A DNA stretch of 64,000 nucleotides from Bacteroidaceae bacterium (GTDB lineage Bacteria; Bacteroidota; Bacteroidia; Bacteroidales; Bacteroidaceae): the NCBI GenBank assembly GCA_024697945.1, contig JAILRU010000048.1:1-64000 (forward strand), given 5' to 3'. Shown here piece after piece: positions 13,881-54,312 of this stretch. Position numbers and translations under genes: made by a program. Position 1 is the first letter of the stretch, and every line of letters begins with the position of its first letter. A model generated the notes under the pieces. That model saw only the letters and a list, made by a program, of their open reading frames with translations, searched no databases and was not told the origin of the DNA.

Positions 13881-14045
13881 ATTATCGTTATCAATTGGAG
13901 TCCCGCGAATCCGCCACAAGCGACCTTTCCCTTTGCACGTAGCGTGCCGTCCTTCCTGTCGGAGCGATAGTATTCCTTGGCAGGAAGGATTAGTAATCCT
14001 ATGAAGATAGGGATAGTAATCCTTCGACGATAGGGATAGGACGCT
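13881..14045 (-). repeat. composite dispersed element, copy A: conserved core plus 23-nt-periodic array of 4 units (13954-14045)
   Basis: Reverse complement aligns with copy B at 31768-32016. Units AGCGTCCTATCCCTATCGTCGAA / GGATTACTATCCCTATCTTCATA / GGATTACTAATCCTTCCTGCCAA / GGAATACTATCGCTCCGACAGGA. Confidence 0.85.
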
Positions 14046-14061
14046 AACGAACAAACAACCA

Positions 14062-14145
14062 GTCGCGTCATTTTTGCGGAAAGGTAGCTCTGCAATTGTG
14101 GAAAGGCCTTTGCGCAAAATATCAAAGGCTTTTGTCGAAAGCACC
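14062..14145 (+). repeat. 22-nt-periodic degenerate array sharing sequence with 47627-47706
   Basis: GTCGCGTCATTTTTGCGGAA shared with the second locus; AAAGG recurs at 14080, 14102 and 14124. Confidence 0.75.
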
Positions 14146-14316
14146 TCAAACGCCTCAAACGTCTTTGCGTCTTTTAGCAAAAACACAGCATACGGTTGGT
14201 GGGGGACGAACAGAATATACATTATATATAATAATTAATAATAATGTACGTCAGTTTGGAGTGTGTCCATAATGTGCGTCTCAAAAAAAACACGTAAGAC
14301 GTTTGAGGCGTTTGAG
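14145..14316. repeat. 19-bp perfect inverted repeat (arms 14145-14163 and 14298-14316)
   Basis: CTCAAACGCCTCAAACGTC ... GACGTTTGAGGCGTTTGAG. Confidence 0.9.
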
Positions 14317-14409
14317 ACGTCCCCATGAAGATGTGTTACTCCTGCTTTTGTTTACAAATTTTAACATGAGGTTTTTGCGAAATCCATCTACAAACCATCA
14401 AAAATGTCG

Positions 14410-14417
14410 TACCTTTG
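14410..14417 (+). promoter_or_regulatory. -7 box TACCTTTG with no obvious ORF immediately downstream
   Basis: TCGTACCTTTGCAGCG. Confidence 0.4.
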
Positions 14418-14618
14418 CAGCGTGATTCTTACACGCTTTAGCGGAAAGGCGCAATGTTAGATGCGGACGTAGTCGCGGAAGAAAAGGTAAAAAATTAAAA
14501 AGGTTTGAATGTGTAAAAGTGAAAAATGTATCAATTATGGACGGTTGGGGGCTTGAAGTCTTGAAATTTTGAATTAATTGTTGTAAATTTGACTACGTCG
14601 AAAGTACTTCCGCTCGAC

Positions 14619-14679
14619 AATAAAAAGAAAAACTTTGGTTTTCTTTTGTATTGTGCTCGCTTATTCGTACCTTTGCACA
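14619..14679 (+). promoter_or_regulatory. promoter block of fasciclin gene 2, -7 box TACCTTTG at 14668-14675; duplicate of 4834-4896
   Basis: AATAAAAAGAAAAACTTTGGTTTTCTTTTGTATTGTGCTCGCTTATTCGTACCTTTGCAC. Confidence 0.75.
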
Positions 14680-14715
14680 CGGCCTGCGGCCTAAATAAAA
14701 ATTATAAATGATAGA

Positions 14716-16854
14716 TTGACTATGGACTATGGACTCATAACTATGGACTATGTCTGTCGTCCGCTGTTTGTTGTCCTGGTTGCTATTCTTCTGCTGACTG
14801 CTTGTCAGGAGGATGTGGATATGTCGGCGCGCTATGTTTTCAAGGAATATACGATAACTGACTACCTGAAGAACCATCCCGATGATTACAGCACTTATTG
14901 TGACCTGCTCTACAAGGTACCTGTCGGCGTGGTCAGTGAGACTACCCTGGGACAGCTTCTCTCAGCCAGAGGTCACTATACAGTCTTCGCCCCAACCAAC
15001 GCAGCTATCGACAGTTTCCTGGTTGAACTGTGCCGAAAGGAACCCGAACTGATGAGTGCTCCCACGTGGGATGCCTTCTACTCGGAGGTGAAACGGGACT
15101 CCATACGCAAAGTCATTGTTATGAACAGCATCATCGACGGAGGGGATGTGGATGTTTACCATACTTACGATTTCCCAACCCAGAACAACAGCGAGTTTGT
15201 CAGGAGCAATATGATGGACCGGAAACTGATGGTGAACTATACGAAGCAACCCGATGAGATTCTCATCAACGACTGCCCCATCAACATCAAAAACCGTGAT
15301 ATCCCTGCCATAAACGGCATCATTCACCAAATGGAGAAGGTAATTGCACCGGAAAACAATACGATGGCTACCATGCTGAGTGAATACATTTCGGGTAAGA
15401 AGGTGGGCTTCTCCATCATGGCCCGCCTGTGTCTGGCTTGCGGACTGATGGACACGCTTTCAAAGGTGAGGGACGAAACGTATGAACGGCTCTACCAGAC
15501 AGGACTCATCGCCTCCAAGGTTCCAGCTAATGGCATGGCCTCTGTCACCCCTGGCTATTCCTTCTCACCCAAGCACAGGAAGTACGGCTTCACCATTTTT
15601 GCAGAACCCGATTCCTTCTGGGAAATGGAGTTGGGGAAGGCAGCCTCGGAAATATCGCTGGCAGAGGTTCAGAACTGGGTTGAGGCTCAGGGCTTCTATC
15701 CGGAGTATCAAGCCACAGAGGATTATAAGGCCGAGAACAACCTGCTCTACCAGTGGACCACCTATCATGTCATAGACTACAAGCTGGCTCCCAACCGCCT
15801 CGTGTTCCATTTCTGCGAATACGGCTACAGGTATTCCTCCAGCACCAAGTACACCATTCCTGTGATGGAATACTACACGACAATGGGCAAGCGACGCCTC
15901 CTGAAGATTTACGAGAGTCCTGAGTCAGACGGCATCTACCTGAACCGCTTCCCCATCATTGACAGTGGTAGGACAGGCTCTGGGCACGAAATAGGCTGTG
16001 ACCCAGAAAACACGGGAAACCGAGTTGACAGGGAAGACCCCGACCTGGAACTCCACAGCGCTACAAACGGATACATGTATGCCATAGACAAGCCACTGGC
16101 CTTCTCCCAGGATGTGAGGGACAAGTTGGGTAAGCAACGAATACGCATGGATGCCATGAGCTGGTTCCAAGAGGCTGAGAACAGCGACATACGCTGTCAG
16201 CTGATAGATGACAATGAACACGGCTGGGTGCATATACCCTACGATGCCGAATACCACTTCTTCAAGAACCTCAACATCAACGAGGGCTCATCCTTCGTCT
16301 ATTGCAACGGATACGGGAAGAACTGGAGCAACTACTGCTGCGATGAGATAAAGTGCGTGGGACGATGGGACCTGACGTTCAAATTGCCTCCCGTTCCCAA
16401 ACGCAACACGTATGAAATCCGCTACCGTGTGATTGCTAATGACAACCGTGGAGTAGCTCAGATTTATTTCGGGAAAGACCCGAACAAGATGTATGCTGCT
16501 GGCATCCCAGTGGATTTGACGATGGGAGGAGATAACCCACGCACGGGATGGGCAGCTGATACGGACGACCAGGATTATAATGCTGAGGTTGACAAGCGCA
16601 TGCGCAATTTGGGATACATGAAAGGCGAGCGTTCCATCGACTGCCTGAACTATTCTGCCAACTCCAGGTCCACCACTATGCGACACATCATCCGGCACAT
16701 CTTTATCCGACAGACTATGGACCCCGATGAGACCTATTATATAAGGTTTAAGAGTGTTCTGGACAAGATTACGCCAGAATTCTACATGGATGGGCTGGAA
16801 TGGTGTCCCAAGGAGGTTTATGACAATCCCGAAACGCCGGAAGATATCTGGTGA
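14716..16854 (+). CDS. fasciclin (FAS1)-domain lipoprotein, copy 2
   Basis: Lipobox LLLTAC; SARYVFKEYTITDYL; LLSARGHYTVFAPTNAAIDSFL; C-terminus EVYDNPETPEDIW. Paralogue of 11621-13756. Confidence 0.85.
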   Translation: MTMDYGLITMDYVCRPLFVVLVAILLLTACQEDVDMSARYVFKEYTITDYLKNHPDDYSTYCDLLYKVPVGVVSETTLGQLLSARGHYTVFAPTNAAIDSFLVELCRKEPELMSAPTWDAFYSEVKRDSIRKVIVMNSIIDGGDVDVYHTYDFPTQNNSEFVRSNMMDRKLMVNYTKQPDEILINDCPINIKNRDIPAINGIIHQMEKVIAPENNTMATMLSEYISGKKVGFSIMARLCLACGLMDTLSKVRDETYERLYQTGLIASKVPANGMASVTPGYSFSPKHRKYGFTIFAEPDSFWEMELGKAASEISLAEVQNWVEAQGFYPEYQATEDYKAENNLLYQWTTYHVIDYKLAPNRLVFHFCEYGYRYSSSTKYTIPVMEYYTTMGKRRLLKIYESPESDGIYLNRFPIIDSGRTGSGHEIGCDPENTGNRVDREDPDLELHSATNGYMYAIDKPLAFSQDVRDKLGKQRIRMDAMSWFQEAENSDIRCQLIDDNEHGWVHIPYDAEYHFFKNLNINEGSSFVYCNGYGKNWSNYCCDEIKCVGRWDLTFKLPPVPKRNTYEIRYRVIANDNRGVAQIYFGKDPNKMYAAGIPVDLTMGGDNPRTGWAADTDDQDYNAEVDKRMRNLGYMKGERSIDCLNYSANSRSTTMRHIIRHIFIRQTMDPDETYYIRFKSVLDKITPEFYMDGLEWCPKEVYDNPETPEDIW

Positions 16855-16855
16855 A

Positions 16856-18298
16856 TCAATGACTTTTCTTCAGCCAGCTATCGCCGCGGAATCTAAGGAG
16901 GAAGATAAGCCCACGGAAGCAGAGCTCTATTGCCATTGCAATCCATACGCCGCGCAGTCCCATACCAGAGACTAACAGGAGGGCAAGGGATATACGCACA
17001 AACCAAATGCTTGCCAGATTCATCGTACAGGGAATCAGGGTGTCTTTTGCTCCTACAAATATGCCGTAGCAGACAATGCTGGCAGCAAACATGGGCTCGG
17101 CAAAGGCTTCTATGCGAAGCACCTGTACGGTGAGCCTCTGCACATCGACATCGGGTGTCATGACACTCATAAGGGCAGGCGAGCAGCAGTACATCACCAC
17201 TCCCATCAGGGTCATGAAGGTCATGCCCATGCCCAAGGTGATGCGTCCGAAACTGCGTGCCAAGAAGCGTCGGCCTGCTCCAAGACTTTGTCCCACAAGT
17301 GTCGTGGCTGCATCGGAGATGCCATAGCCAGGCATGTAGCAAAGTGCCTCAACAGTGATGCCAAAGCTGTTTGCAGCAATCGCAACCGTTCCTAATGGTG
17401 CGACAATAATCGTGCTCATGATTTGGGCACCGCACAGGATGACATGTTCCACTGCAATCGGTGCAGCAATGCGGAAGCTCTCACGCAAAGTGTTCTTCTG
17501 AGGAAGGAAGGAACCCGGGGGCTCGCTATCCTGCCGGAGCGAGAGTTCTTTGCTTCGCACAACGGTGAAATAGCACATCAACATGGAGCAGATGCCGAAG
17601 GCGATGGCTGTGCCCAGCACGGCACCTACGACTCCAAGGTCTGCGCCTGGGATTGTTATAGACCATTGACCGTTGGCCATTGACCATTGATAGGTGCGGG
17701 TAGGGAAGATGAGTAGCCAGTTGAAGAGGACATCAAGCAGGCATAGCCCGATGTTCAGGATGCTGGGAATGTGCATGTTGCCACTGCAGCGGAGCATACC
17801 GGCGCAGAGCGAGTTGAGCATTGAGAAGGGCAGACAGAGCGAGAAGAACATGAAGTAGAGGCTTGCATCGTGACAGATGTCCGCGCCGCCTCCCAACCAA
17901 TGGGGCAGGTAGCTGCTAATGCAGACCCCGATGCCGCTGAGCATCAAAGCGAAAAGGATGCAAGAGAGAAAACTTTGCCTGAGTACTTGACGCGCACCGA
18001 CAAAGTCGCTGGCACCAATCTTATGCGCCACTTGAACGTAAAAGCCGACGCTGACAGCTGCACAGAGACTGCCGAAGAGCCAGATGGTGGTGCTGACCAG
18101 ACCGATGCTGGCACTGGCGTGAGCTCCAAGACTGCCTACCATGCTGGCATCGATGTACTGCATCATGATGTGCACGAGCTGTGCCATCATGCTGGGAAAA
18201 CTGAGCAAGGCGGTAAGCTTGACCTGTGACAGGGTGTCAAGCTTGCCGCCTTCTCGTATAAGCGAGAGCAACCTATCTTTACTCTGCGTGTATTTCAT
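16856..18298 (-). CDS. MATE family efflux transporter
   Basis: 480 aa, polytopic; LTALLSFPSMMAQLVHIMMQYIDASMVGSLGAHASASIGL. Confidence 0.92.
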   Translation of the reverse strand: MKYTQSKDRLLSLIREGGKLDTLSQVKLTALLSFPSMMAQLVHIMMQYIDASMVGSLGAHASASIGLVSTTIWLFGSLCAAVSVGFYVQVAHKIGASDFVGARQVLRQSFLSCILFALMLSGIGVCISSYLPHWLGGGADICHDASLYFMFFSLCLPFSMLNSLCAGMLRCSGNMHIPSILNIGLCLLDVLFNWLLIFPTRTYQWSMANGQWSITIPGADLGVVGAVLGTAIAFGICSMLMCYFTVVRSKELSLRQDSEPPGSFLPQKNTLRESFRIAAPIAVEHVILCGAQIMSTIIVAPLGTVAIAANSFGITVEALCYMPGYGISDAATTLVGQSLGAGRRFLARSFGRITLGMGMTFMTLMGVVMYCCSPALMSVMTPDVDVQRLTVQVLRIEAFAEPMFAASIVCYGIFVGAKDTLIPCTMNLASIWFVRISLALLLVSGMGLRGVWIAMAIELCFRGLIFLLRFRGDSWLKKSH

Positions 18299-19133
18299 TG
18301 ATTATACAGTCTGCAGGAGCCTTCTGATTCCCGTCGATGATGAGTTCTCCGATATGTCCGGCTACTGTTATGCTGCCGCTGGTGGGATTCTTGATGCTGT
18401 GTATGTCCCCTTTGATAGTGGCTTTTACCGTACTGTACTCAAGAGCAAGGTTGGCATCGGCTCCAAAGGTGCAGTCCACCAGGGTCAGATTCTCGCAATA
18501 GCATAGTGGCTGTTCGCCTGTGATATGACAGCGGATGAGAGTAAGGCCCCGGCTGTACCATGCCAGATACTCACCGTTGATTTCGCAGTCTGTAATGGTG
18601 ACGTTCTCGCAGTCCCAAAGTGCATCCTTACTGTTGAGCAGGGAGTTCTTTATCTCCACGTTCTTGCTGTACTGGAAGGCATAGTTACCCTCTAAATGCA
18701 GATGGTCAATGTAGATGTTGTCGGTGCGCATCCCCAAATAATCAGCATTCAGTATTTCGCTGTTCCGTATATCCACATGGTCGCAATCCCAAAGCGTCTC
18801 TAATGCATTGGTGAAATGGCAGTTCTGTACTTCGATGCCCTGCATGCGGCGGAACATCTTGGGCGCGTCCACCAGACAATCTACAAGCCTGCCCTCTTTG
18901 CTGTACCATAGCGAAGAGCGTGCCGAGGTCTCGAAACGGCATTTGCTGGCTAAGAACTTCTTGCATTCCCAGAAGACATACTTGCCCTCGAAAGTGCAGT
19001 CGTAGGCTTCGATATTGCCACTCTCCTTGATGCTTGACTCACCGAGGTGGATGGTCACACGTTCCAGCCTGGCATCGTGCAACTTATAGAGTGGCCGCTC
19101 ACCTCCAAATTCCTTATCCTGAATAACAACCAT
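18279..19133 (-). CDS. DUF3737-like right-handed beta-helix protein
   Basis: Repeating hydrophobic/polar pattern ...DCTFEGKYVFWECKKFLASKCRFETSARSSLWYSKEG. Overlaps the MATE gene by 20 bp. Confidence 0.8.
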   Translation of the reverse strand: MVVIQDKEFGGERPLYKLHDARLERVTIHLGESSIKESGNIEAYDCTFEGKYVFWECKKFLASKCRFETSARSSLWYSKEGRLVDCLVDAPKMFRRMQGIEVQNCHFTNALETLWDCDHVDIRNSEILNADYLGMRTDNIYIDHLHLEGNYAFQYSKNVEIKNSLLNSKDALWDCENVTITDCEINGEYLAWYSRGLTLIRCHITGEQPLCYCENLTLVDCTFGADANLALEYSTVKATIKGDIHSIKNPTSGSITVAGHIGELIIDGNQKAPADCIINEIHAE

Positions 19134-19213
19134 CTATATTTTATTTACTATTTTACGATTTACGATGTACTATTTATTTACGTAAATAGTAAATTGTCAA
19201 ATCGTAAATGAAA

Positions 19214-20911
19214 TTAGTCTTCCATCAATTTCCTATACCTTATCCTCTTTGGCTCTTCAAGACCGAGGCGCTTGAGCTTGTTTGCCTCGTATTCAGTGTA
19301 GCTGCCTTCGAAGTAGAAGACATTGCCGTCGCCTTCGTATGCAAGGATATGCGTGCAGATGCGGTCCAGAAACCAACGGTCGTGACTGATGACAACGGCA
19401 CAGCCTGCGAAGTTCTCCAGACCTTCTTCCAAAGCACGCAGCGTGTTGACGTCGATATCGTTGGTCGGCTCGTCGAGCAACAGCACGTTGCCTTCCTGCT
19501 TGAGTGCCATGGCGAGGTGCAGTCGGTTACGCTCACCACCAGACAGCACGCCACACTTCTTCTCCTGGTCAGCTCCATTGAAGTTGAAGCGGCTCAGATA
19601 GGCACGAACGTTGATGTCTCGTCCGCCCATTCTTATCAGCTCGTTGCCTTGCGAGATGACCTGGAACACACTTTCGTCTGCCTTTATATCCTTGTGGCTC
19701 TGGTCTACGTATGCCAGTTTGACCGTCTCTCCCACCTCGAAGGTTCCTGAGTCGGGTTGCTCCAAGCCCATAATCATGCGGAACAGAGTTGTCTTGCCTG
19801 CTCCATTGGGGCCAATAACACCTACGATTCCATTGGGGGGCAACATGAAGTCCAGATTCTTGATGAGCACCTTGTCGCCGTATGCTTTGTTCAGTCCGTG
19901 AGCCTCTATCACCTTGTTGCCCAGACGAGGGCCGTTAGGAATGAAGATTTCCAGCTTCTCCTCGCGCTCTTTCTGCTCCTCGTTCAGCATCTTGTCATAA
20001 GAGTTCAGACGGGCCTTACCCTTTGCCTGACGGGCTTTTGGAGCCATACGTACCCATTCCAGCTCCCGCTCCAAAGCCTTGCGCCGCTTGCTGGCCACCT
20101 TCTCTTCCTGAGCCATACGCTTGGTCTTTTGCTCAAGCCATGAGGAGTAGTTGCCCTGCCAGGGTATGCCTTCGCCTCGGTCGAGCTCCAGAATCCAACC
20201 AGCTACATCATCAAGGAAATAACGGTCATGAGTGACGGCGATGACGGTTCCCTCATATTGCGTGAGGTGCTGTTCGAGCCAGTCAATACTCTCTGCATCA
20301 AGATGGTTGGTAGGCTCGTCGAGCAACAGTACATCGGGCTTCTGCAAGAGCAGGCGACAAAGTGCAACACGACGGCGTTCTCCACCAGAGAGGTTCCTGA
20401 CGGGTTGGTCGGCTGGAGGACAACGCAGCGCATCCATTGCACGTTCCAGTTTGCTGTCAAGGTTCCATGCGTCGGTGCTGTCGATGATGTCCTGTAGCTC
20501 ACCCTGACGAGCAAAGAGCTGGTTCATCTTGTCCTCGTCCTCATAGTATTCAGGCAGGCCGAACTTCTGATTTATCTCCTCATATTCTTTCAGGGCATCC
20601 ACGATGTGCTGCACACCTTCCTTCACCACTTCTATGACCGTCTTGTCATCGTCAAGCTTGGGTTCCTGCTCCAAATAGCCGACACTATAGCCTGGACTCC
20701 ATACCACATTCCCCTGATATTGCTGCTCAATGCCGGCAATAATCTTCATGAGGGTTGACTTACCAGCACCATTCATGCCTACGATGCCAATCTTAGCGCC
20801 GTAGAAGAAAGAGAGGTAGATGTTCTTGAGGATTTGTTTCTGGTTCTGCTGGATGACCTTGCTCACGCCGACCATCGAGAAGATGACCTTCTTGTCATCT
20901 GTCGTTGCCAT
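19214..20911 (-). CDS. ettA: energy-dependent translational throttle protein EttA (ABC-F)
   Basis: Two ABC domains; GMNGAGKSTLMKIIAGIEQ, LSGGERRRVALCRLLLQKPDVLLLDEPTNHLD, GPNGAGKTTLFRMIMG. Confidence 0.95.
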   Translation of the reverse strand: MATTDDKKVIFSMVGVSKVIQQNQKQILKNIYLSFFYGAKIGIVGMNGAGKSTLMKIIAGIEQQYQGNVVWSPGYSVGYLEQEPKLDDDKTVIEVVKEGVQHIVDALKEYEEINQKFGLPEYYEDEDKMNQLFARQGELQDIIDSTDAWNLDSKLERAMDALRCPPADQPVRNLSGGERRRVALCRLLLQKPDVLLLDEPTNHLDAESIDWLEQHLTQYEGTVIAVTHDRYFLDDVAGWILELDRGEGIPWQGNYSSWLEQKTKRMAQEEKVASKRRKALERELEWVRMAPKARQAKGKARLNSYDKMLNEEQKEREEKLEIFIPNGPRLGNKVIEAHGLNKAYGDKVLIKNLDFMLPPNGIVGVIGPNGAGKTTLFRMIMGLEQPDSGTFEVGETVKLAYVDQSHKDIKADESVFQVISQGNELIRMGGRDINVRAYLSRFNFNGADQEKKCGVLSGGERNRLHLAMALKQEGNVLLLDEPTNDIDVNTLRALEEGLENFAGCAVVISHDRWFLDRICTHILAYEGDGNVFYFEGSYTEYEANKLKRLGLEEPKRIRYRKLMED

Positions 20912-20914
20912 AGC

Positions 20915-21325
20915 TTATTCCAATTTGTCGTTGCTGAGCTTTATCGCCTTGTAGGCTTGCTGCGTAGTGAGCACCGTCTTGAATTTTGCGTAGTGCTTGC
21001 GATGTATTGCCGGTTCCTTCTCCTCCTGTTTCTGCTTGGCCTCGAAGAGCTGATCGCATTGAGCTGGAGTGAGCTTGTTTGCATCGATGGCATCCTGCAA
21101 CTCGTCTTTGAGATTCTTGTAGGAGTCTTTCAGGTCCCCAAGTTCTTTAAGATAGGCATCGAGCAGAGGCCTGAACTTTTCTTGTACATCACTTTTAAGC
21201 CTGAGGTTCTTCAGGACGTAGGCTATACGTGCATCCCGTTTCTTGCCAGCTTGGGCAGTGGTGGGCATGGCAGCGGACAAGCTGATGAGCATGGCCGCGA
21301 TGAGCATGAAATGTTTCATAATCAT
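20915..21325 (-). CDS. small exported protein of unknown function
   Basis: 136 aa with signal peptide MKHFMLIAAMLISLSAAMPTTAQA. Confidence 0.7.
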   Translation of the reverse strand: MIMKHFMLIAAMLISLSAAMPTTAQAGKKRDARIAYVLKNLRLKSDVQEKFRPLLDAYLKELGDLKDSYKNLKDELQDAIDANKLTPAQCDQLFEAKQKQEEKEPAIHRKHYAKFKTVLTTQQAYKAIKLSNDKLE

Positions 21326-21375
21326 AATATTTATATATAAGTTAAAAGGAAGTTAAAGAGGAAGCTAAAGGGATT

Positions 21376-22845: not shown

Positions 22846-22891
22846 TACTTTAACTCTAAACTCTAAACTTTCAACTCTCAACTCCAAAAAC

Positions 22892-23752: not shown

Positions 23753-23864
23753 AATTACAATTTTTTTTTCAATTTACAATGAAAATGTGCTGCTTTTCGT
23801 GCTTTTTGGAATAAAAAATACAAAATAATTCTAAAATCTTATCCCTTAATTCTTAATTTATTCG

Positions 23865-23872
23865 TATCTTTG
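23865..23872 (+). promoter_or_regulatory. -7 box TATCTTTG for panC
   Basis: TTCGTATCTTTGCACG 21 bp before the panC ATG. Confidence 0.65.
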
Positions 23873-23892
23873 CACGATTTTCTGTATATACC

Positions 23893-24735: not shown

Positions 24736-24737
24736 AT

Positions 24738-25346: not shown

Positions 25347-25361
25347 TATTAGGTAAAGTTT

Positions 25362-31399: not shown

Positions 31400-31423
31400 C
31401 GCCGATAAAGCCTAAATTCAGAT

Positions 31424-31511
31424 TGCAAAAACGACTTTTACAGCCTGCAAGAATAGAGTTTACACGCTGCAAACACTATCTTTGCAACGAGCAAAGCGCC
31501 GTTTTTATGCC
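31424..31511 (+). repeat. 22-nt-periodic degenerate array, 4 units
   Basis: TGCAAAAACGACTTTTACAGCC / TGCAAGAATAGAGTTTACACGC / TGCAAACACTATCTTTGCAACG / AGCAAAGCGCCGTTTTTATGCC; unit starts at 31424, 31446, 31468, 31490. Confidence 0.8.
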
Positions 31512-31663
31512 ATTAAGTCCCTACGTTTTTTTCAGTGCGTAGGAAATATTTTTTCTCTTCGGAGGAAAAATATTTCCTGTGCGTAGCAGTAAAATCTGCT
31601 TCTCAATGGCGATTTTGAGAAAAAGGATAGTATTTTTATGCATTTTTAGTGCCAAATTCGCAA

Positions 31664-31767: not shown

Positions 31768-32016
31768 AGCGTCCTATCCCTCCTGCTGGAGGATTACTAT
31801 CCCTCCCTTCGAAGGATTACTATTCCTTCCTGCATAGGATTAGTATTCCTTCCTGCCAAGGAATACTATCGCTCTGGCAGGAAGGACGGCACGCTACAAG
31901 CAAAGGGAAAGGTCGCTTGTGGCGGATTCTCGTCCGTCCGTCAGAACCACTATATATATGTGTGGTTCTGACAAACGGACAAAAATCTTTCCGCGGGACT
32001 CCAATTGATAACGATA
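31768..32016 (+). repeat. composite dispersed element, copy B: 23-nt array of 5 units (31768-31882), conserved core, 63-bp hairpin insertion (31929-31991)
   Basis: Aligns with the reverse complement of copy A. Units AGCGTCCTATCCCTCCTGCTGGA / GGATTACTATCCCTCCCTTCGAA / GGATTACTATTCCTTCCTGCATA / GGATTAGTATTCCTTCCTGCCAA / GGAATACTATCGCTCTGGCAGGA. Confidence 0.88.
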
Positions 32017-36974: not shown

Positions 36975-36999
36975 ACAGTAATGGTACAATATACTCTTC

Positions 37000-37087
37000 G
37001 CAAACCTTTGGCAAGTACATAGCAAACCCTTCGCAAACCTAGGCAAACCCTTTGGACTTGCCAAGGGTTTGCCTACACTATGCCAAG
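37000..37087 (+). repeat. ~22-nt-periodic GCAAACC array with terminal inverted arm
   Basis: GCAAACC at 37000, 37022, 37033, 37043; GGCAAACCCTT (37042-37052) pairs with AAGGGTTTGCC (37063-37073). Confidence 0.7.
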
Positions 37088-45717: not shown

Positions 45718-46679
45718 ATTGTTTTTTCAATCTGATAGTTATTGCGTTCGGGAGCATTACGGCTGATAAGCTCTCCCAAGAAACCAGCTACGAAGAGCTG
45801 AGTACCCAGAATCATCATCGTCAGAGCGATATAGAAATAGGGGCTGTTGGTGACGAGAGGGTGAGGAATGCCGTTCCAGATGCAGTACAGCTTCGTGCCG
45901 CCTACCACCATCACAGCCAGCAGACCGAGTATGAACATCACAGTCCCGATGAAGCCGAAGACGTGCATCGGCTTAAGTCCAAAGCTGTCCAAGAACCATA
46001 ATGAAAGCAGGTCCAGATAGCCGTTGACGAAGCGGTTTAGCCCCATAAACTTCGACTTGCCAAACTTGCGAGCCTGGTGATGGACGCGCTTCTCGCCGAT
46101 ATGGGTAAAACCAGCGTTCTTGGCAAGGTATGGAATGTAGCGATGCATCTCACCATAGACCTCGATGTTCTTGACCACCTCGCTACGGTAGGCCTTCAGT
46201 CCGCAGTTGAAATCGTGCAGGTTATGGATGCCGCTCACTTGTCTTGCCGTCGCATTGAAGAGCTTGGTGGGAATAGTCTTCGACAGAGGGTCACCCTTGC
46301 TGCGGTTCATCTTGTAACCGCTTACCAGGTCGTACCCCTCCTCTGTAATCATGCGATATAGCTCAGGAATTTCGTCGGGGGAGTCCTGCAGGTCGGCATC
46401 CATCGTGATGACCACATTACCCTGTGCTGCTCCGAAGCCACAATAGAGGGCTGGGCTCTTGCCATAATTGCGGCGGAACTTAATACCATGTACCGTCTCG
46501 GGATTCTCAGCCTTGAGCTGCTCGATGACTTCCCACGAGTGGTCTGTACTACCATCGCTGACAAAGATAACTTCGTAGGAGAAACCGTGCGTCTCCATCA
46601 CCTGCTTTATCCATCTGAAGAGCTCAGGCAGGGACTCATCTTCGTTGTACAGAGGAACAACAACACTTATATCTTTCAT
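45714..46679 (-). CDS. family 2 glycosyltransferase (DPM1-like) with C-terminal TM helices
   Basis: SVVVPLYNEDESLPELFRWI, VITMDADLQDSPDEIPELY. Confidence 0.92.
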   Translation of the reverse strand: MKDISVVVPLYNEDESLPELFRWIKQVMETHGFSYEVIFVSDGSTDHSWEVIEQLKAENPETVHGIKFRRNYGKSPALYCGFGAAQGNVVITMDADLQDSPDEIPELYRMITEEGYDLVSGYKMNRSKGDPLSKTIPTKLFNATARQVSGIHNLHDFNCGLKAYRSEVVKNIEVYGEMHRYIPYLAKNAGFTHIGEKRVHHQARKFGKSKFMGLNRFVNGYLDLLSLWFLDSFGLKPMHVFGFIGTVMFILGLLAVMVVGGTKLYCIWNGIPHPLVTNSPYFYIALTMMILGTQLFVAGFLGELISRNAPERNNYQIEKTI

Positions 46680-46690
46680 TTTATCATTTT

Positions 46691-47227
46691 TTACTCTTTC
46701 AACTTTTCAACTTTTCTTACTGGCAGCGCCGCAAGCAGGGAGACTGGGAACGCCAGTATTAGATTGTAGAATGCCATTTGCAACACGATGTCCCGGATGG
46801 ACATCGATTGAAACACTTTCTGTATTTCTTCCAGATTCGATTCAGGGAACAGTTTTTGCAAGGTTTGGCGGTACTCCTCGCTTTGCATGGCCTTACTCAT
46901 CAACGAGATGAAACGCCCGTCATCGAGCAGAAGAAAATAGGCATATTGCGCAGCATCTGTCAGCAGGCCAGCCAGCAAACATGTAACAAACGACAAACGC
47001 CAAATATACAACCAACTCGATGGGTTGAGCTGGCGGTAGTTCGTCAGTTGCTTGTAGAGCACATAGATGCTGATGAGACCCAAAGCCGATCCCAGCGTCG
47101 AAAGGAGCGGACGTTCAAAGGCGTACATCGCGCACAAAAAGCTTGCCGACCACATCAGTCCTATCGGAAGGGCCATCCATCCAGCTACATCTATCAGCTT
47201 TTCTCTTTTCACCTTTTCATTTGTCAT
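46691..47227 (-). CDS. DUF4199-like membrane protein
   Basis: 178 aa, 4 TM segments, immediately upstream of the GT2 gene. Confidence 0.7.
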   Translation of the reverse strand: MTNEKVKREKLIDVAGWMALPIGLMWSASFLCAMYAFERPLLSTLGSALGLISIYVLYKQLTNYRQLNPSSWLYIWRLSFVTCLLAGLLTDAAQYAYFLLLDDGRFISLMSKAMQSEEYRQTLQKLFPESNLEEIQKVFQSMSIRDIVLQMAFYNLILAFPVSLLAALPVRKVEKLKE

Positions 47228-47269
47228 TTATCATTTAGGGCGTAGCCCGCTCTTTCAATTATGAGCGGG

Positions 47270-47277
47270 CAAAGATA
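47270..47277 (-). promoter_or_regulatory. -7 box TATCTTTG for the DUF4199-GT2 operon
   Basis: CAAAGATA on the + strand. Confidence 0.55.
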
Positions 47278-47393
47278 CGAAAAAAAGCCATATAAATAAT
47301 GTAATAGAGGCAAAAAAAAGCGTGAAAGCGTAAAATTCTTCATTCTTCACTATAATTTTGAATTTTGAATTTTGAATTTTGAATTATATGTCG

Positions 47394-47401
47394 TACCTTT
47401 G
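47394..47401 (+). promoter_or_regulatory. -7 box TACCTTTG for ffs-tRNA
   Basis: GTCGTACCTTTGCACCC immediately 5' of the SRP RNA. Confidence 0.7.
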
Positions 47402-47414
47402 CACCCGCTTAACA

Positions 47415-47512
47415 TGGGAAAGTCCTATACGGCATGCTCCCGGTGAATCCCCCAGGGCTTGACCGCAGCAAGGGCAGCAGGTTGTAGCGGCGCGATATAG
47501 TAAGCTTTCCCA
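47415..47512 (+). ncRNA. ffs: bacterial small SRP RNA (4.5S)
   Basis: Terminal stem TGGGAAAG/CTTTCCCA; domain IV signature GGTGAATCCCCCAGGGCTTGACCGCAGCAAGGGCAGCAGG. Confidence 0.85.
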
Positions 47513-47515
47513 CCT

Positions 47516-47589
47516 GCCTCTTTAGCTCAGTTGGCCAGAGCACGTGATTTGTAATCTCGGGGTCGTTGGTTCGAATCCGACAAGAGGCT
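47516..47589 (+). tRNA. tRNA-Thr (anticodon UGU)
   Basis: GCCTCTT acceptor paired with AAGAGGC; loop TTTGTAA; TPsiC arm GTTGG-TTCGAAT-CCGAC. Confidence 0.93.
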
Positions 47590-47605
47590 CTCTCATCAGT
47601 ATGTC

Positions 47606-47640
47606 ACGCGACAGGTCGTTTGACCTGTCGCGTCATTTTT
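47606..47640 (+). terminator. terminator of the ffs-tRNA-Thr unit
   Basis: ACGCGACAGGTC-GTTT-GACCTGTCGCGT perfect 12-bp stem, then CATTTTT. Confidence 0.9.
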
Positions 47641-47706
47641 GCGGAATAGTAGTTCCTAAATTGCGCAAAGGCCTTTGTTCAAGATTTCAAAGGCCTTTGC
47701 GCAAAA
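47640..47706 (+). repeat. 22-nt-periodic array with 15-bp perfect hairpin
   Basis: GCGCAAAGGCCTTTG-ttcaagattt-CAAAGGCCTTTGCGC; CAAAGGCCTTTG at 47666 and 47688, TGCG at 47640 and 47662. Confidence 0.8.
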
Positions 47707-47760
47707 GGAAGCCACAGGTTTATGATTCCTGGGTAGAAAAAGTGGGGACTATTCAGCGGG

Positions 47761-49563
47761 TTAGTAGTTCAGGCGGAACATGATGGGCAAGGCGAAGCGG
47801 CTGCGGACGATGTTGCCGTCCTTGTCCTTGGCGGGTTCCCACTTTGGCATCATCTTCAGGACGCGCTCGCCTTCCTTGAAGAGCAAGTCGCCCAGGTCTT
47901 GTCCTGCCTCAAGTTTTTCCTGATTGTCGGGATGCTCCTTTTGATATGCTGTCACCTCTATCTCGGAGAGTTCTTTACCAGGTCCGCGAACCTTCTTGAT
48001 ATTGGTGAGGCTGCCATCCTTCTCAACAACGAAATTGATGATGACACGGCCCTCGAAGCCAAACTCCTGACAGAGTTTAGGATAGCGGATGTTCTGGGCC
48101 AGGAACTTGAAGCACTCCCCATCGCCGCCTGGATACTTTGCATTCTCGTGCACAACATTGTAGATGCTGTCCTCCTTTGCCTCTGCTGCTCTTGTTTCTA
48201 TAGAGAGCACAGATGAACCATCAGGCAGGGTAGTAAGATTGTTTTTAATCTCTTTGCCTTGCACGGCTTTGATGGCTTCGTGCGGAGTCATCTCCTTTCC
48301 ATCGACAACAACTTTTGGAGCCTCTTTAGTCTTAATTACGATGACACCATTGGAACCTTTATCTCCCCACTTGGCGGTGGCGGCATCCTTCTGAAGCACG
48401 GTAATGCTCTCAACATCCTCGGGATTGACATTAAGTAGTTTAGTGAACTGCTCCTCTCTTTCGAGGTTGACATTCTTCATATCCTCAGGGATTTCGTAGA
48501 TTTGGTCATTGAGGACAATCAGTGGCTGAGCATTACCAGTACCACGCACACGCATGGTTGTACTTTTCTCTTTTTCTTCCTCAAAAGCTTGCAGGTTAAG
48601 AGAATTCTCCGTACCTTTGCCCTCGAGTTTCGAAACTGTCTCCTCGATAGGAGCGACGAACTTAGGCGTTGCGAAGGCACTGAGTGCCAGCGCAGCCACC
48701 GGGATGACATAGAGCGCCTTGCTCCGCATCCACGGATTTGACTTGATTTTCTTCATCATAGTGATACGTTTTTTAGTTAAACTATGGTTAAAGCTGTTGG
48801 CAAAAGCGTAGGAACCTGAGCCAACGGCTTTTCTTATGAGCAATAACTGATAGCCCTGAGCCGAGACGCCCTGCTGCAGGACGTACTTGTCGGCCTCGTA
48901 TTCGTGGACGTCCCGAAGGCTGATGCCCAGCACATAGACCAGCGGATTCCACCATTGCACCATCTGAACGAGCGTGAGCAGCACGACGTCCCAAGAGTGA
49001 TGCCCCTGAATGTGCCCCATCTCGTGCAGCATAATCTCGCGGCCAGCCTCGTTGTAGTCCTGCTCGTTGATGACGATGTTCCGCATCCAACTGAAGGGAG
49101 CCACGTCGCCCGAGTGGCAATAGATGCGGACGCCTTGTTCGTCCTGCTGCCAGAGGGCTCCGCGACGCAAGCCGAACTGCAGGCGGCCTATCTGCCACAG
49201 CCTAACCACCAGCAACAAGGCCATACCTATTATATATGTAATGGTTAAAAGATGAAAGAGTGAAAAGGTGAAAGAGTTCGCGCCCTGTTCCTCTGCCACG
49301 ATTTGCACTTCGGGCAGGACGTGGACGGGGATTCCCAGTTCGAGCATCTGCAACTGGGCGGCCTGTACGACGGGCTGATGGTCGAGGGACATCCAGGACA
49401 CGTTGCACAGCGGCAGCACGAGCGAAAGGAACAGGATGCCCAGCAGCATCATACGGTTAAAGCGGAAGAAACTCTCGCGCTGCAGCATCAGCATGTATGG
49501 CAAGTAGAGCAACGACAGGACGATTGCGGACTTGATGGAATAGAGAAGCATAGCGGAAACCAT
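47761..49563 (-). CDS. BlaR1-type M56 metallopeptidase with TonB-plug-like segment and TonB C-terminal domain
   Basis: HEMGH motif; DVESITVLQKDAATAKWGDKGSNGVIVIKTKE; C-terminal FGFEGRVIINFVVEKDGSLTNIKKVRG. Confidence 0.88.
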   Translation of the reverse strand: MVSAMLLYSIKSAIVLSLLYLPYMLMLQRESFFRFNRMMLLGILFLSLVLPLCNVSWMSLDHQPVVQAAQLQMLELGIPVHVLPEVQIVAEEQGANSFTFSLFHLLTITYIIGMALLLVVRLWQIGRLQFGLRRGALWQQDEQGVRIYCHSGDVAPFSWMRNIVINEQDYNEAGREIMLHEMGHIQGHHSWDVVLLTLVQMVQWWNPLVYVLGISLRDVHEYEADKYVLQQGVSAQGYQLLLIRKAVGSGSYAFANSFNHSLTKKRITMMKKIKSNPWMRSKALYVIPVAALALSAFATPKFVAPIEETVSKLEGKGTENSLNLQAFEEEKEKSTTMRVRGTGNAQPLIVLNDQIYEIPEDMKNVNLEREEQFTKLLNVNPEDVESITVLQKDAATAKWGDKGSNGVIVIKTKEAPKVVVDGKEMTPHEAIKAVQGKEIKNNLTTLPDGSSVLSIETRAAEAKEDSIYNVVHENAKYPGGDGECFKFLAQNIRYPKLCQEFGFEGRVIINFVVEKDGSLTNIKKVRGPGKELSEIEVTAYQKEHPDNQEKLEAGQDLGDLLFKEGERVLKMMPKWEPAKDKDGNIVRSRFALPIMFRLNY

Positions 49564-49584
49564 TGTTATTTACGATTTGACGAT

Positions 49585-49983
49585 TTACGATTTACAATTT
49601 AATTTTGAATTATGAACTAATTCCAGCAGTTCTTTTATTTCGTCGGGCGAGAGGTTCTCTTCCTTGACGAAGTAGTTGAGCATGGACTTCAGGCTTCCGC
49701 CGAAGAAGTTCTTCTTCACTTCCTGCATCGTGCGGCGCGTGTACTCTGCCCGTGTCACCAGGGGCACATAGCGGTGGGTCTTGCCCTGTCCGCCCACTTT
49801 GTGGAAGTCCAGGAAGCCCTTTTCGTAGAGCACCTTCAGGTAGGTGGCAATCGTTGTGTAGGCAGGCTTGGGTTCCTCGCAATGTTCCAGTACGTCCCAC
49901 GCACAGGCTCCGTCCTGGATGTTCCAAAGGATGTTCATTACTTCGAACTCGACCTTGGTCAGTGTGTTGTCCTTACGTTTCAT
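49585..49983 (-). CDS. BlaI/MecI/CopY family repressor
   Basis: LTKVEFEVMNILWNIQDGACAWDVLEHCEEPKPAYTTIATYLKVLYEKGFL. Confidence 0.93.
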   Translation of the reverse strand: MKRKDNTLTKVEFEVMNILWNIQDGACAWDVLEHCEEPKPAYTTIATYLKVLYEKGFLDFHKVGGQGKTHRYVPLVTRAEYTRRTMQEVKKNFFGGSLKSMLNYFVKEENLSPDEIKELLELVHNSKLNCKS

Positions 49984-50068
49984 ATATATTAGTCGTTTGG
50001 GGAGTTATTCGTTTGGGATGTTTCCGAGGGCAAAGTAAGGGAGTTTTTCTGAATCTCGCAATATTTAG

Positions 50069-50088
50069 ATATCGAAAACTTACGATAT
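50069..50088. promoter_or_regulatory. candidate operator palindrome ATATCG-N8-CGATAT upstream of blaI
   Basis: Inverted repeat 86-105 bp upstream of the repressor start. Confidence 0.35.
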
Positions 50089-50295
50089 TCCCCGCTTTTT
50101 AACATTTATTCGTAGTAATGCAACACTTTTTACGGCCTGACTGCCGGTTTTCTTCTCTTTAACTACCACTTTTACTCCCTATTTAACTCCCACTTTTACA
50201 TCACATACTTCAGCATTATGGCGCGATTACGTCGAGAAACTCGCGAAAAGCGGAGAAAACTTGCTGGATTCGCCCATCATGTAGGGAAAAAAGTG

Positions 50296-50303
50296 TATCT
50301 TTG
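50296..50303 (+). promoter_or_regulatory. -7 box TATCTTTG for smpB
   Basis: GTGTATCTTTGTGCCC. Confidence 0.6.
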
Positions 50304-50323
50304 TGCCCAAGAATATGCGATAA

Positions 50324-50800
50324 ATGGCTAAATCCAAGATTGAAAACAAGGGAAGTGTCAACATCAAGAACAAGAAGGCTGAGTTCGACTACATCTTGAT
50401 GGACAAATATACTGCCGGCATTGTGCTCACGGGTACAGAGATAAAGAGTATCCGCAAGGGTAAGGCGAGTCTGGTCGATACGTACTGCATGGTCCTCTTC
50501 GGCGAGGTGTGGGTGAAGAACATGTACATCGCCCAGTACGAGCAGGGGTCGTATAACAACCACGTGGAGCGGCGCGACCGCAAGCTGCTGCTCAACCGCA
50601 AGGAGATACGCAAGATCCAGAACACGGTGAAGGCGCCGGGCTTCAGCATCGTGCCTGTGCTCCTGTTCATCGACGAGAACGGGAGGGCGAAGCTGGACAT
50701 CCACATCGCCCGAGGCAAGAAGGAGTACGACAAGCGCGAGACGCTGAAGGAGAAGGAAGACCGCAGGGACATATCAAGGCAGTTCAAGAAGAATTATTAA
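50324..50800 (+). CDS. smpB: SsrA-binding protein SmpB
   Basis: [57 protein letters not shown]. Confidence 0.96.
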
Positions 50801-50815
50801 AGGGAATGGGAAAGG

Positions 50816-50860
50816 GCTCCGCGACTACAATCGCGCCTTGGTGCTAAAGCATCCAAGAAG
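50816..50860 (+). repeat. two-hairpin element, intergenic copy
   Basis: GGCTCCGCGACTACAATCGCGCCTTGGTGCTAAAGCATCCAAGAA; paralogous to 55551-55597. Confidence 0.8.
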
Positions 50861-50902
50861 TTAAAGAGAAGTTAAAAAGAAGTTATAGGGAAGTTAAAGA
50901 GA

Positions 50903-52342
50903 ATGGAAGGGAAGTTAAAGGGAATGGAAAGACAGTTACAATTTACTCTTCTTTGCTTGGTGGTGCTGATGGTGGCCTGTTCCAAGCGCGAGGCGAAGGA
51001 CAGGGTGGACGCTCTGCCCGAGATTTTTCCCGACTACATCGGCGTCACGGTGCCGAGGAACATCTGCCCCATGAACTTCTCCGTGCCTGGGGCGGAGCAC
51101 GTACGGGTTATCGTGGAGAACGACAAGGGCGAGACGCTTGACGTGAGCGGCAGCGACCACATCGAGATACCGGTCAGGACGTGGAAGAAGGCCCTCTCCG
51201 ACTCCCTGTCTGTCACCGTCTCCGCCTGGGACAAGGAGCATCCGGACGGCGTGACCTACAAGCCCTTCACCATCCACATCGCCCGCGACAGCATCGACCC
51301 GTGGATAGCCTACCGCCTGCTGCCGCCGGGCTACGAGGGATGGAACCACATGGGCATCTACCAGCGCAACATCGAGTGCTTCGACGTCGAGCCCATCATC
51401 GAGAACTCGCAGAACAACAAGGGCTGCGTCAACTGCCACTCCTTCGCCAACTACGACCCACGCGACTTCACCTTCCACGCCCGTGGCAAGAACGGCGGCA
51501 CCATAGTGATGCGCGACGGCAAGATGCGGAAGGTCGATATCAAAGAGATGAGTGGCGGCCGCCACGGCTCGTACAACATCTGGCATCCCTCGAAGCGCTA
51601 CATCGCCTTCTCCAGCAACTCCACGCACCAGAGCTTCTACGGTGAGAGCAGGGACAAGATAGAGGTCTATGACTTGTGGTCCGACCTGATAGTATATGAC
51701 ATAGACAACGAGCGCATCCTACAGGACGAGCGCTTCACCGACAGCCTCAACCTCGAGATGTTCCCCTCGTTCTCGCCCGACGGCAAATGGCTCTACTTCA
51801 GTACGGCCAAGCCCGTGAGGATGCCGATGGAAGCGGACAAGCTGCACTACAGCATCGTGCGCGTCCCCTTCGACGAGCAGACGGGCGAGCTCGGCGAAGT
51901 AGATACGGTCTATAGCACCTACGAGCACGGAGGAGGCACAGCCATGATGCCGAGACTGACTCCGGACGGCCGCTACATGCTCTTCTCGCTGGGAGACTGC
52001 GGGGGATACAATCTCTACCACTCTGAGTCGGAACTCATGATGATGGCTCTCGAGACGGGCGAACTGGTGCCGACGGACATCCTGAACAGCCCCAGAGCCG
52101 AGAGCTTCCACTCCTGGAGCAGTAACGGACGATGGGTGATGTACGTGACCAAGCGCTTCGACGGACGCTACACGCGGCTCATGATGGCGTACTGGGACGG
52201 CGAGCGGTTCCACAAGCCCTTCCTGCTGCCACAGCGGAACCCCGAGGAGAACATCATGCTGCTGATGGCGTACAACGTCCCGGAGTTCATCAAGGGACGC
52301 GTCGTCATCGGGAAGAACGATATGGCGAGAATGTTTGAATAA
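50903..52342 (+). CDS. TolB/WD40-like propeller lipoprotein with a single CxxCH motif
   Basis: LMVACSKREAKD lipobox; GCVNCHSFANYDPRDF; PSFSPDGKWLYFS repeats. Confidence 0.8.
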   Translation: MEGKLKGMERQLQFTLLCLVVLMVACSKREAKDRVDALPEIFPDYIGVTVPRNICPMNFSVPGAEHVRVIVENDKGETLDVSGSDHIEIPVRTWKKALSDSLSVTVSAWDKEHPDGVTYKPFTIHIARDSIDPWIAYRLLPPGYEGWNHMGIYQRNIECFDVEPIIENSQNNKGCVNCHSFANYDPRDFTFHARGKNGGTIVMRDGKMRKVDIKEMSGGRHGSYNIWHPSKRYIAFSSNSTHQSFYGESRDKIEVYDLWSDLIVYDIDNERILQDERFTDSLNLEMFPSFSPDGKWLYFSTAKPVRMPMEADKLHYSIVRVPFDEQTGELGEVDTVYSTYEHGGGTAMMPRLTPDGRYMLFSLGDCGGYNLYHSESELMMMALETGELVPTDILNSPRAESFHSWSSNGRWVMYVTKRFDGRYTRLMMAYWDGERFHKPFLLPQRNPEENIMLLMAYNVPEFIKGRVVIGKNDMARMFE

Positions 52343-52359
52343 TATATATATAATATATA

Positions 52360-53865
52360 ATGTATAATAAACAATATGAAACAGGCGGCTCGGAAGCGAA
52401 GAAGGCTACGGTTTTCTATATATTGCTGCTTGTTCTGATGCATATCTATGTCCTCTACACCGGCTCGCAGTTCCGCTATACCTACCTGTCGATGGAGGGT
52501 GACGACTTCTGGGTGGCGACGTGGGACTTCTGGCGGCTCAAGCTCGGCATGACGCCCGCCCTGACCAACTGGCTGGCGGACTACCTCATGCAGTTCTACG
52601 GCAAGCCCTACGTCGGAGCCACCATCCAGGCCGTTGTGATCGGAGCGACCGGAGTCCTGTTCAGGGCACTCCTCTCTGGGAAGGGATGGTGGACGTTTCT
52701 TGCCCTCCTGCCGCCCGTCCTCCTCGCCTTCTGCTACCCGTTCAGCCTGTCTTTCCAACTGCAGACTCTCTTCTTCTTCGCCATGTTCCTGGGCATCTCG
52801 TGGATACCGAGGGACAACTGGAGGCGGCTGGCGAGGTTGGTTGCCATACCCGTCAGCTTCATGCTGATGATACTCCCATTCCAGTTCGTGCTGGCGTTCC
52901 CCTTAGTCCTCCGGAGCAAAGACGAAGGAGAAAGGCGGCCCAAAGATTTGTTGAAGTCCGCATGTGGTTTGGTGGCAGTAGTACTCCTCTACCTGACGCC
53001 CCATATCTACAGCCAGCAGGTCGCCTTCATACCCTTCGAGAACCGCTTTGTGGACATTACTGCCTACTGGGAGCCCCTGACGAGCCAACACCTGCGTAAC
53101 AACGAGAACATCCGCAAGATGGTCTGCCTCGCCAGTGAAGGGCGGTGGAAGGACCTCCTCTACAAGGAGGGCATACAGAGGGATGCCCAGCGAGGCAACG
53201 CCATAGCGCTACGTTACGCCCTACTCGCCGAGAGCGCTCTCGGCACGCTGCCAGAGAACCTACTCTACTACCCCATCAACGACGAGAGACTCTTCCTCTT
53301 CCAGAACGACCAGAACGTAGTGGCTCAGCAGATTAACAGACTCTTCTACCTGAACCTCGGCATCTGCGACGAGGCATTCCACCAGGCCATGGAGTATGGG
53401 CTGCTGCAGCGGAACGGTATCTGCTTCAGCAGCCTGAGGCAGATGGTAGATTACAGCACCGAGGCGGGAGACTGGGAGATAGCCGAGCGGTTCCTCCACG
53501 TCCTCTCCAAGTCCACCCTCCACAAGCGATTCGTTGAGGAGAGGCAAGCCAAAATCCAAAATCCAAAAGGCCTCACGTCGAATGGAGAAAGCGAGGCTCC
53601 CCAGCGGGCTGACAACTTCGTCGGAGGCTATCCACTGCCCATCGAGATGCTACGACTGGCACGGTACTACGGGGGAAAGGGGACTGCAGAACAAGGACAA
53701 CAGCCCGCCGACATAAAGAAGATGGTCGATTACGCCCTTTGTTGCTACATCCTGCGGAACGACGCGAACAGCTTCAGGATAGTCCTCGGGGCGTACGACT
53801 ACTACAAAGACGGCCCCCTCCCCCACGCCTACAGCGAGTTCCTCAGCCCCGCGAAGGAACAATAG
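52360..53865 (+). CDS. DUF6057-like polytopic membrane protein
   Basis: 501 aa, N-terminal TM segments, C-terminal helical repeat region; 17 bp after the propeller gene. Confidence 0.65.
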   Translation: MYNKQYETGGSEAKKATVFYILLLVLMHIYVLYTGSQFRYTYLSMEGDDFWVATWDFWRLKLGMTPALTNWLADYLMQFYGKPYVGATIQAVVIGATGVLFRALLSGKGWWTFLALLPPVLLAFCYPFSLSFQLQTLFFFAMFLGISWIPRDNWRRLARLVAIPVSFMLMILPFQFVLAFPLVLRSKDEGERRPKDLLKSACGLVAVVLLYLTPHIYSQQVAFIPFENRFVDITAYWEPLTSQHLRNNENIRKMVCLASEGRWKDLLYKEGIQRDAQRGNAIALRYALLAESALGTLPENLLYYPINDERLFLFQNDQNVVAQQINRLFYLNLGICDEAFHQAMEYGLLQRNGICFSSLRQMVDYSTEAGDWEIAERFLHVLSKSTLHKRFVEERQAKIQNPKGLTSNGESEAPQRADNFVGGYPLPIEMLRLARYYGGKGTAEQGQQPADIKKMVDYALCCYILRNDANSFRIVLGAYDYYKDGPLPHAYSEFLSPAKEQ

Positions 53866-53913
53866 CCGCAGAGGGAAGGGACGGAAGTCAAACATACAAA
53901 CAAGTGAGCAAAG

Positions 53914-53938
53914 GGCGTGCCGAATGTGGCACGCCCTC
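53914..53938 (+). terminator. hairpin after the DUF6057-like gene
   Basis: AGGGCGTGCC-gaatgt-GGCACGCCCT. Confidence 0.65.
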
Positions 53939-53946
53939 GCTATAGG

Positions 53947-54027
53947 GTCTCCCTCCCACTAATTTATCTATGATTTAAAAAAATGTGTACAATTGCATAA
54001 AAAATTATTAACCCTCGGGAGGGAGAC
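53947..54027. repeat. 11-bp perfect inverted repeat flanking an AT-rich 59-bp spacer
   Basis: GTCTCCCTCCC (53947-53957) and GGGAGGGAGAC (54017-54027). Confidence 0.85.
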
Positions 54028-54042
54028 TTGGGAATGAAGTCT

Positions 54043-54135
54043 TAGTCCGCGTCGCCGCCGCCTGGGTTGTCACCGCCGCTGCCTGGGTTGTCGCCGCCGC
54101 TGCCGCCGGGATTTGAGCCCGGGTCTTTGCCAGAA
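54043..54135 (-). pseudogene. remnant of a Gly/Asp/Asn/Pro-rich tail lacking a start codon
   Basis: Minus-strand frame reads QFYSGKDPGSNPGGSGGDNPGSGGDNPGGGDAD-stop with an in-frame stop immediately upstream; ~24-nt duplication inside. Confidence 0.45.
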
Positions 54136-54222
54136 TAGAATTGTTAAAAAAAGGTTAATACTATTGGTTAGTCACTCTCAGTCCATATCTTTAATTTTTT
54201 CAGGCTATAGACCCCGTTTTTT

Positions 54223-54312
54223 CAGTACAGGGAAAGTTTCGTTTCAGTACAGGAAAACCGCCGTTTCACTACACTAAAACCGCCGTTTCAGTACACTAAA
54301 AAAAAAGTCGCC
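54223..54312 (+). repeat. 22-nt-periodic degenerate array, 4 units
   Basis: CAGTACAGGGAAAGTTTCGTTT / CAGTACAGGAAAACCGCCGTTT / CACTACACTAAAACCGCCGTTT / CAGTACACTAAAAA...; starts 54223, 54245, 54267, 54289. Confidence 0.88.

Follow-up and report, generated by a model that had tools for sequence, protein, structure and literature searches.

Intergenic tandem arrays of Bacteroidaceae with a fixed 22- or 23-nt pitch and changing unit sequences suggest a widespread DNA-docking or gene-boundary signal

The 64,000 nt stretch of DNA analysed here (the window), from a member of the Bacteroidaceae, contains short intergenic tandem arrays repeated every 22 or 23 nt, and it raises the question of why arrays with mostly different unit sequences should share one spacing. 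The window corresponds to contig C40 in a Bacteroidales assembly of 3.68 Mb and 138 contigs. By MreB identity, the closest named entries are rumen metagenome genomes listed as 'Bacteroidaceae bacterium' or 'uncultured Bacteroidales bacterium' (98 %), with Candidatus Physcousia equi at 89 % and Prevotella-group genomes at ~85 %. Gene neighbourhoods were taken from a simple longest-ORF caller, not from a curated annotation. A scan of the window with Rfam found Bacteroidales_small_SRP at 47409 and a tRNA and nothing beyond these, and the arrays match no structured-RNA family.

The initial annotation listed seven arrays and proposed that they form one class, located mainly at 3' ends, with protein docking, control of transcription or supercoiling, or debris of repeat expansion as candidate roles. 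For each array, the best lag among 20-25 was determined and a p-value was obtained against dinucleotide shuffles (Table 1). The best lag was 22 or 23 in all seven (p = 0.002-0.008 each), and all seven are intergenic, as had been described. The array at 31527, which also has a lag of 22, was absent from the earlier list and is the eighth in the window. As the places had been chosen by a reader, these p-values are post hoc, and the claim was therefore retested on unselected DNA.

Table 1. Arrays and associated modules in the window
Feature	Position	Strand	Period and other evidence
Family-1 array (13954); end motif AGCGTCCTATCC at 14034-14045	13904..14045	-	exact 23-nt pitch; lag 23, p=0.002
Family-2 copy (14072), CAAAGGCCTTTG-type units at 22 nt	14058..14134	+	lag 22, p=0.008
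22-nt array (31424), imperfect units, e.g. TTTACACGCTGCAAACACTATC; part of a dispersed element	31420..31515	+	lag 22, p=0.008
Additional 22-nt array (31527), GTGCGTAGGAAA/TTTCCTCCGAAG-type units	31520..31600	+	lag 22, p=0.002
Family-1 array (31768), canonical units CCTNCCNNCNAAGGATTACTATT at exactly 23 nt; begins at end motif AGCGTCCTATCC	31768..31870	+	lag 23, p=0.002
Family-1 right-end module, degenerate continuation with CGCT every 22 nt	31867..31916	+	50 nt in 12/12 copies
Self-complementary hairpin module in family-1 flank	31925..31987	.	some copies only
GCAAACC-unit array (37000), convergent gap	36995..37085	+	22-nt (and 11-nt) period; lag 22, p=0.004; lag 33 also high
Family-2 copy (47640), two CAAAGGCCTTTG palindromes 22 nt apart	47623..47704	+	best lag 22; gap between tRNA-Thr and convergent gene
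22-nt array TTTCAGTACACTAAAACCGCCG (54223), ~4 units	54219..54308	+	TRF score 103; lag 22, p=0.002; single-copy

Three arrays lie in convergent gaps, in agreement with the earlier description. These gaps separate a BspA-type LRR gene (+) from the gene for a DHH protein (-) at 37000, tRNA-Thr (+) from an M56/TonB gene (-) at 47640, and a DUF6057 gene (+) from recX (-), for which the recX domains were found, at 54223. Other features of the window were recorded in passing. The 13954 and 14072 arrays are flanked by tandem paralogues, one with a fasciclin domain (11621-13756) and the other a related 712-aa ORF (14716-16854), and a single copy was seen in the corresponding region of close relatives. 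Adjoining the 54223 array is a 21-nt GC-rich repeat, CGCCGCTGCCTGGGTTGTCAC (54048-54109), which may be coding and outside the class, as its minus strand could encode a Gly/Ser/Asp/Asn/Pro-rich peptide repeat. A perfect (GTGA)16.5 tetranucleotide tract (1068-1133) lies in a region with no recognisable gene family, and the 98-aa ORF that overlaps it has no Pfam match. Heptamer microsatellites (AATTTTG, ATTTACG, AAAAGTG and others) are abundant in the intergenic DNA of this genome, with 40 lag-7 segments in 41 kb vs 6 in 39 kb from sampled relatives.

For the retest, tandem arrays were sampled from the intergenic DNA of the source genome, other species of the same genus, and named Bacteroidaceae and Prevotellaceae. 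Microsatellites with a period of ≤12 were removed, and each array was assigned its best lag between 13 and 60. Among the 141 arrays in this pool, 76 had a best lag of 21-23 (52 at 22, 15 at 23 and 9 at 21), a further 14 fell at the harmonic of 44, and any other lag was represented by at most 4 arrays. Each of the three sample sets (source genome, congeneric species and named relatives) had its peak at lag 22, and the isolates with arrays include Leyella stercorea DSM 18206 and Hallella seregens ATCC 51272. Shuffled intergenic DNA yielded 0-2 arrays per set, and coding DNA was without a matching peak at lag 22. Other families of the order, sampled in 40 stretches (78 kb), had 2 arrays with a best lag of 21-23 and none at 22, vs the 21.6 predicted from the rate in the genus (p about 1e-7), and 32 kb of E. 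coli K-12 contained no array at lag 21-23. The proposal that the arrays form a single class sharing their pitch is thus backed by a signal in sampled genome stretches that lies far above shuffles, and by the comparison between species, in which the pitch is kept and the unit sequences are not.

The statement that unit sequences differ between arrays was correct only in part. The arrays at 13954 and 31768 belong to one family (family 1), being inverted copies that are 90 % identical (13954 array vs 31932-31797), and those at 14072 and 47640 (47623-47699) belong to another (family 2) and are 82 % identical. Family 1 is represented by ~40 copies or matches in the genome and family 2 by 5 copies. 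The arrays at 31424 and 31527 are both within one dispersed element with tens of genome matches, mostly to the 31527 half; several copies are long, including those on contigs C91 and C114 (93 % and 90 %), and tens of matches are shorter. The 37000 array has 4 copies in the genome and the 54223 array has 1. At least three unrelated array families coexist in this genome.

These families are restricted to particular lineages. Among 60 relatives searched by alignment, family 1 was present only in G001, and no family-1 match was found in plasmids, phages or viral contigs (the viral scan used exact patterns only). The species pair G078 and G009 has a family of its own with the core CAACGTGTTG/CAACACGTTG (29 and 28 scored matches), and none was found in 17 other species of the genus. 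Although ACACGT is present in 9 of 57 units (1-1.6 expected), this excess comes partly from shared ancestry and ACACGT is not claimed as a common core. Some arrays are accompanied by hairpin modules. One of ~63 nt, GTCAGAACCAC...GTGGTTCTGAC, is self-complementary and is found at 31925-31987 and in other family-1 copies; it is missing from the 13954 copy, and the family-1 flanks are hence mosaics of modules. A dispersed module, GTGTATTTATGTA...TACATAAATACAC, with ACGAACGA ends, adjoins arrays in L009, L014, L019, L022 and L024, and another, TTAATGTCACAATGTCAC...GTGACATTGTGACATTAA, lies beside arrays in L002, L003, L010 and L020.

The most telling observation is how strict the pitch is within a family. 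The distance from core to core in family 1 of the source genome is exactly 23 in 73/73 cases (74/74 in a relaxed search), with no mixture of 22 and 23, and it is 23 in 19/19 cases in G001. In G078, the distance is 22 in 82/82 cases, and in 100/103 when relaxed cores are included. The spacers of the arrays are 8-12 nt long and share a consensus. Adjacent spacers in G078 mismatch at 45 % of positions, amounting to 440 differences with no indel, though these differences are not all independent, as units may be homogenised by recombination, and the argument from missing indels is weakened to that extent. The noncoding leaders of relatives, used as a rough control, have frequent gaps, one for every 2.5 substitutions or so by a crude estimate. 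The family-1 right-end module was considered as a control for the indel rate and found unsuitable, being itself phased and length-invariant. The idea of debris left by repeat expansion, at least in its simple form, does not account for the missing changes in spacing.

The units also have dyad symmetry in excess. Self-complementarity of the consensus units is 4.56 vs 3.47 in shuffles, and 23 % of units have a significant dyad (p<0.05) when taken singly. In units of pitch 22, 24 dyads have their centre between two bases (9.2 expected) and 3 have it on a base (8.0 expected); this result is for pitch 22 only, as the odd-pitch sample outside family 1 is too small to judge. Both core orientations are found inside 12 of 25 G078 arrays, with the register kept. 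Relative to transcription, the majority orientation in G078 is forward in 5 arrays, reverse in 5 and equal in 1, and there is no polarity. Mixed orientation and lack of polarity are as expected for sites recognised by dimers.

The location of arrays mainly at 3' ends, as initially proposed, is strongly evident in G078 and takes the same direction in the source genome, but is only modest when species are pooled. Among 23 placed arrays in G078, 11 are in convergent gaps vs 3.4 expected (p=0.001) and 1 is in a divergent gap vs 4.0 expected, and 8 of the 11 in tandem gaps are nearer to the upstream stop codon. The 19 resolved copies of family 1 in the source genome include 8 in convergent, 9 in tandem and 2 in divergent gaps. 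In the pool of species (87 arrays), 12 are in divergent gaps vs 19 expected (p=0.05), and the mean relative position in tandem gaps is 0.40 on a scale that starts with 0 at the 3' end of the upstream gene.

In the gap that follows rodA and closes the mre operon, 7 relatives have arrays of lag 22 or 44, and 3 more have 41-nt arrays. The units are largely different between relatives, with a TTCACAC element common to L135, L138 and L140. In the closest species, an array is present in this gap in L135 and L138 and there is none in the window, L136, L139 or L141. The array in L135 and L138 is between the rodA stop codon and promoter-like TTTG elements of the next gene. The 41-nt arrays consist of palindromic units (TTCCCGACCCGGGAA; GGGAAGTGAACATTTCCC) and are found downstream of rodA at 15877-15982 in L151, 12025-12146 in L152 and 16194-16468 in L172.

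Docking is the candidate role that best fits a strict pitch close to two helical turns, units with dyads, cores of either orientation without polarity, and the 3'/convergent location. We consider, with a probability of roughly 0.4, that the arrays are phased dyad sites on which a dimeric or multimeric DNA-binding protein docks, likely at the boundaries of transcription units, and that their sequences turn over between lineages. Each unit would comprise a short core, often a dyad, and a spacer, and two to nine cores exactly 22 or 23 bp apart, i.e. about two helical turns, would allow protein dimers, or multimeric complexes (e.g. a topoisomerase), to sit side by side in a fixed register. The preferred places of the arrays are behind stop codons and between converging genes, at a distance from promoters. 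By analogy with BIME-2, which binds DNA gyrase (PMC2817692), the likeliest use would be to mark the boundary of a transcription unit, either by blocking read-through or by retaining a protein that takes up supercoils. Within a given lineage, a small number of cores, or just one, may have spread to tens of places and later been replaced, such that the letters change and the geometry stays. As several unrelated families are found in one genome, a single base-specific factor is unlikely to read all of the arrays, unless it is geometry or structure that is read. A more far-reaching version, in which the Bacteroidaceae have a boundary system defined by geometry and not by sequence, with strict 22-bp (or 23-bp) dyad arrays behind operons, a conserved reader of the phasing and cores replaced in each lineage, appears doubtful.

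The main rival, which we regard as a real if tentative possibility, is that the arrays are non-functional minisatellites of the BrickBuilt type, carried in a miniature mobile element that is moved by a transposase acting in trans, with slippage or recombination at palindromic cores adding further units. Arrays would be tolerated only where no promoter or gene is broken, and the 3' bias would then reflect purifying selection. BrickBuilt, with its 23-nt tandem repeats, is a precedent (PMC4596501), and both the presence or absence of arrays at orthologous gaps and the lineage-restricted families are in keeping with this explanation. So are the defined ends of family 1: AGCGTCCTATYC occurs 27 times, nearly always at the end of an array. 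However, the end motif is at both ends in two copies only, no transposase-sized segment is apparent between paired end motifs in this genome, and inspection by eye revealed no consistent target-site duplication, the flanks being too diverged to define one. Moreover, slippage and drift predict neither one pitch across unrelated families nor the absence of any pitch change amid divergent spacers. A BrickBuilt-like origin accounts for dispersal and turnover, but not for the constancy of the pitch.

It is improbable that the arrays act as RNA devices, i.e. as tandem hairpins at the 3' ends of mRNAs that terminate transcription or block exonucleases. They are located behind stop codons and fold better than shuffles, with mean folding z-scores on the two strands of -6.1/-5.9 for family 1 of the source genome, -2.4/-2.5 for G078 and -2.6/-2.7 for the others. 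However, folding is equal on both strands and polarity is lacking, U-runs adjoining the ends of G078 arrays are near background (6/50 vs 7.8 %), and a train of hairpins needs no exact 22-nt step. An intrinsic terminator, with a GC hairpin, a U-run and polarity, is accordingly not supported for G078.

Mobilisation by a RAYT (Y1) transposase, as for REP/BIME elements, is very unlikely. The tens of palindromic, lineage-specific intergenic arrays per genome at 3' ends are REP-like (PMC2817692), but the units are direct tandem repeats at a fixed 22 or 23 nt, unlike REP dimers, in which spacers are mostly 20-100 bp (PMC3733652). No match to Y1_Tnp (PF01797) was found in G078, G009, G001, G012, G002 or G016, and the lack of one in G078, which is array-rich and 97 % complete, disfavours a RAYT/REP origin. 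Chance, assembly artefact or coding periodicity, which might be suspected as the arrays were picked post hoc, is refuted by the sampled lag spectrum, with next to no arrays in shuffles, no peak in coding DNA and, excluding an artefact of assembly, arrays in named isolates, and its likelihood is negligible.

In the open-access literature, we found no description of a class extending across the Bacteroidaceae with a conserved pitch and changing sequence, and the sole close case is BrickBuilt of Porphyromonas gingivalis, the nearest described relative. Classes of repeats are usually identified by similarity of sequence. As the pitch here is constant and the unit sequences change from species to species, such searches pick up small families confined to particular species, e.g. 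BrickBuilt, and overlook the class as a whole. A role in protein docking would point to an unrecognised system of transcription-unit boundaries, or of the nucleoid, among the dominant bacteria of the gut, rumen and mouth. For selfish minisatellites, any mechanism of dispersal would have to account for the constant step of 22 nt.

Among known systems, CRISPR arrays likewise have a conserved palindromic core and spacers of constant length. However, the spacers here are 8-12 nt long and resemble one another, instead of being unrelated and ~30 nt, and there are many small arrays per genome. REP/BIME elements are located at 3' ends. The arrays resemble REP/BIME-2 in being palindromic intergenic repeats with many copies per genome and tandem clusters, and differ in unit length and pitch, in their direct tandem register and in having no evident GTAG/CGTC-type tag. 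The arrays in L151, L152 and L172 agree in length, the only feature compared, with MITE464/PgRS of P. gingivalis, which has 41-nt tandem repeats. BrickBuilt is a MITE-borne minisatellite of P. gingivalis with 23-nt tandem repeats, a leader and a tail, found in 19 intergenic copies; it has IS5-like terminal repeats (GAGACCTTTGCA), target-site duplications and 0-6 % indels, and is reported to be limited to P. gingivalis and P. gulae (PMC4596501). P. gingivalis W83 also has 22- and 41-nt repeats (PMC4596501). The arrays share with BrickBuilt the tandem units of 22-23 nt without separate spacer DNA, a conserved and a variable half, the intergenic location, tens of copies, dyads and some leader/tail structure in the flanks. 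IS5-like ends and target-site duplications were not found here, the ends having been worked out for family 1 alone, where they are AGCGTCCTATCC and not an IS5-like sequence. Compared with BrickBuilt by its description, the spacing here is stricter, and many unrelated unit families across the Bacteroidaceae share the pitch alone.
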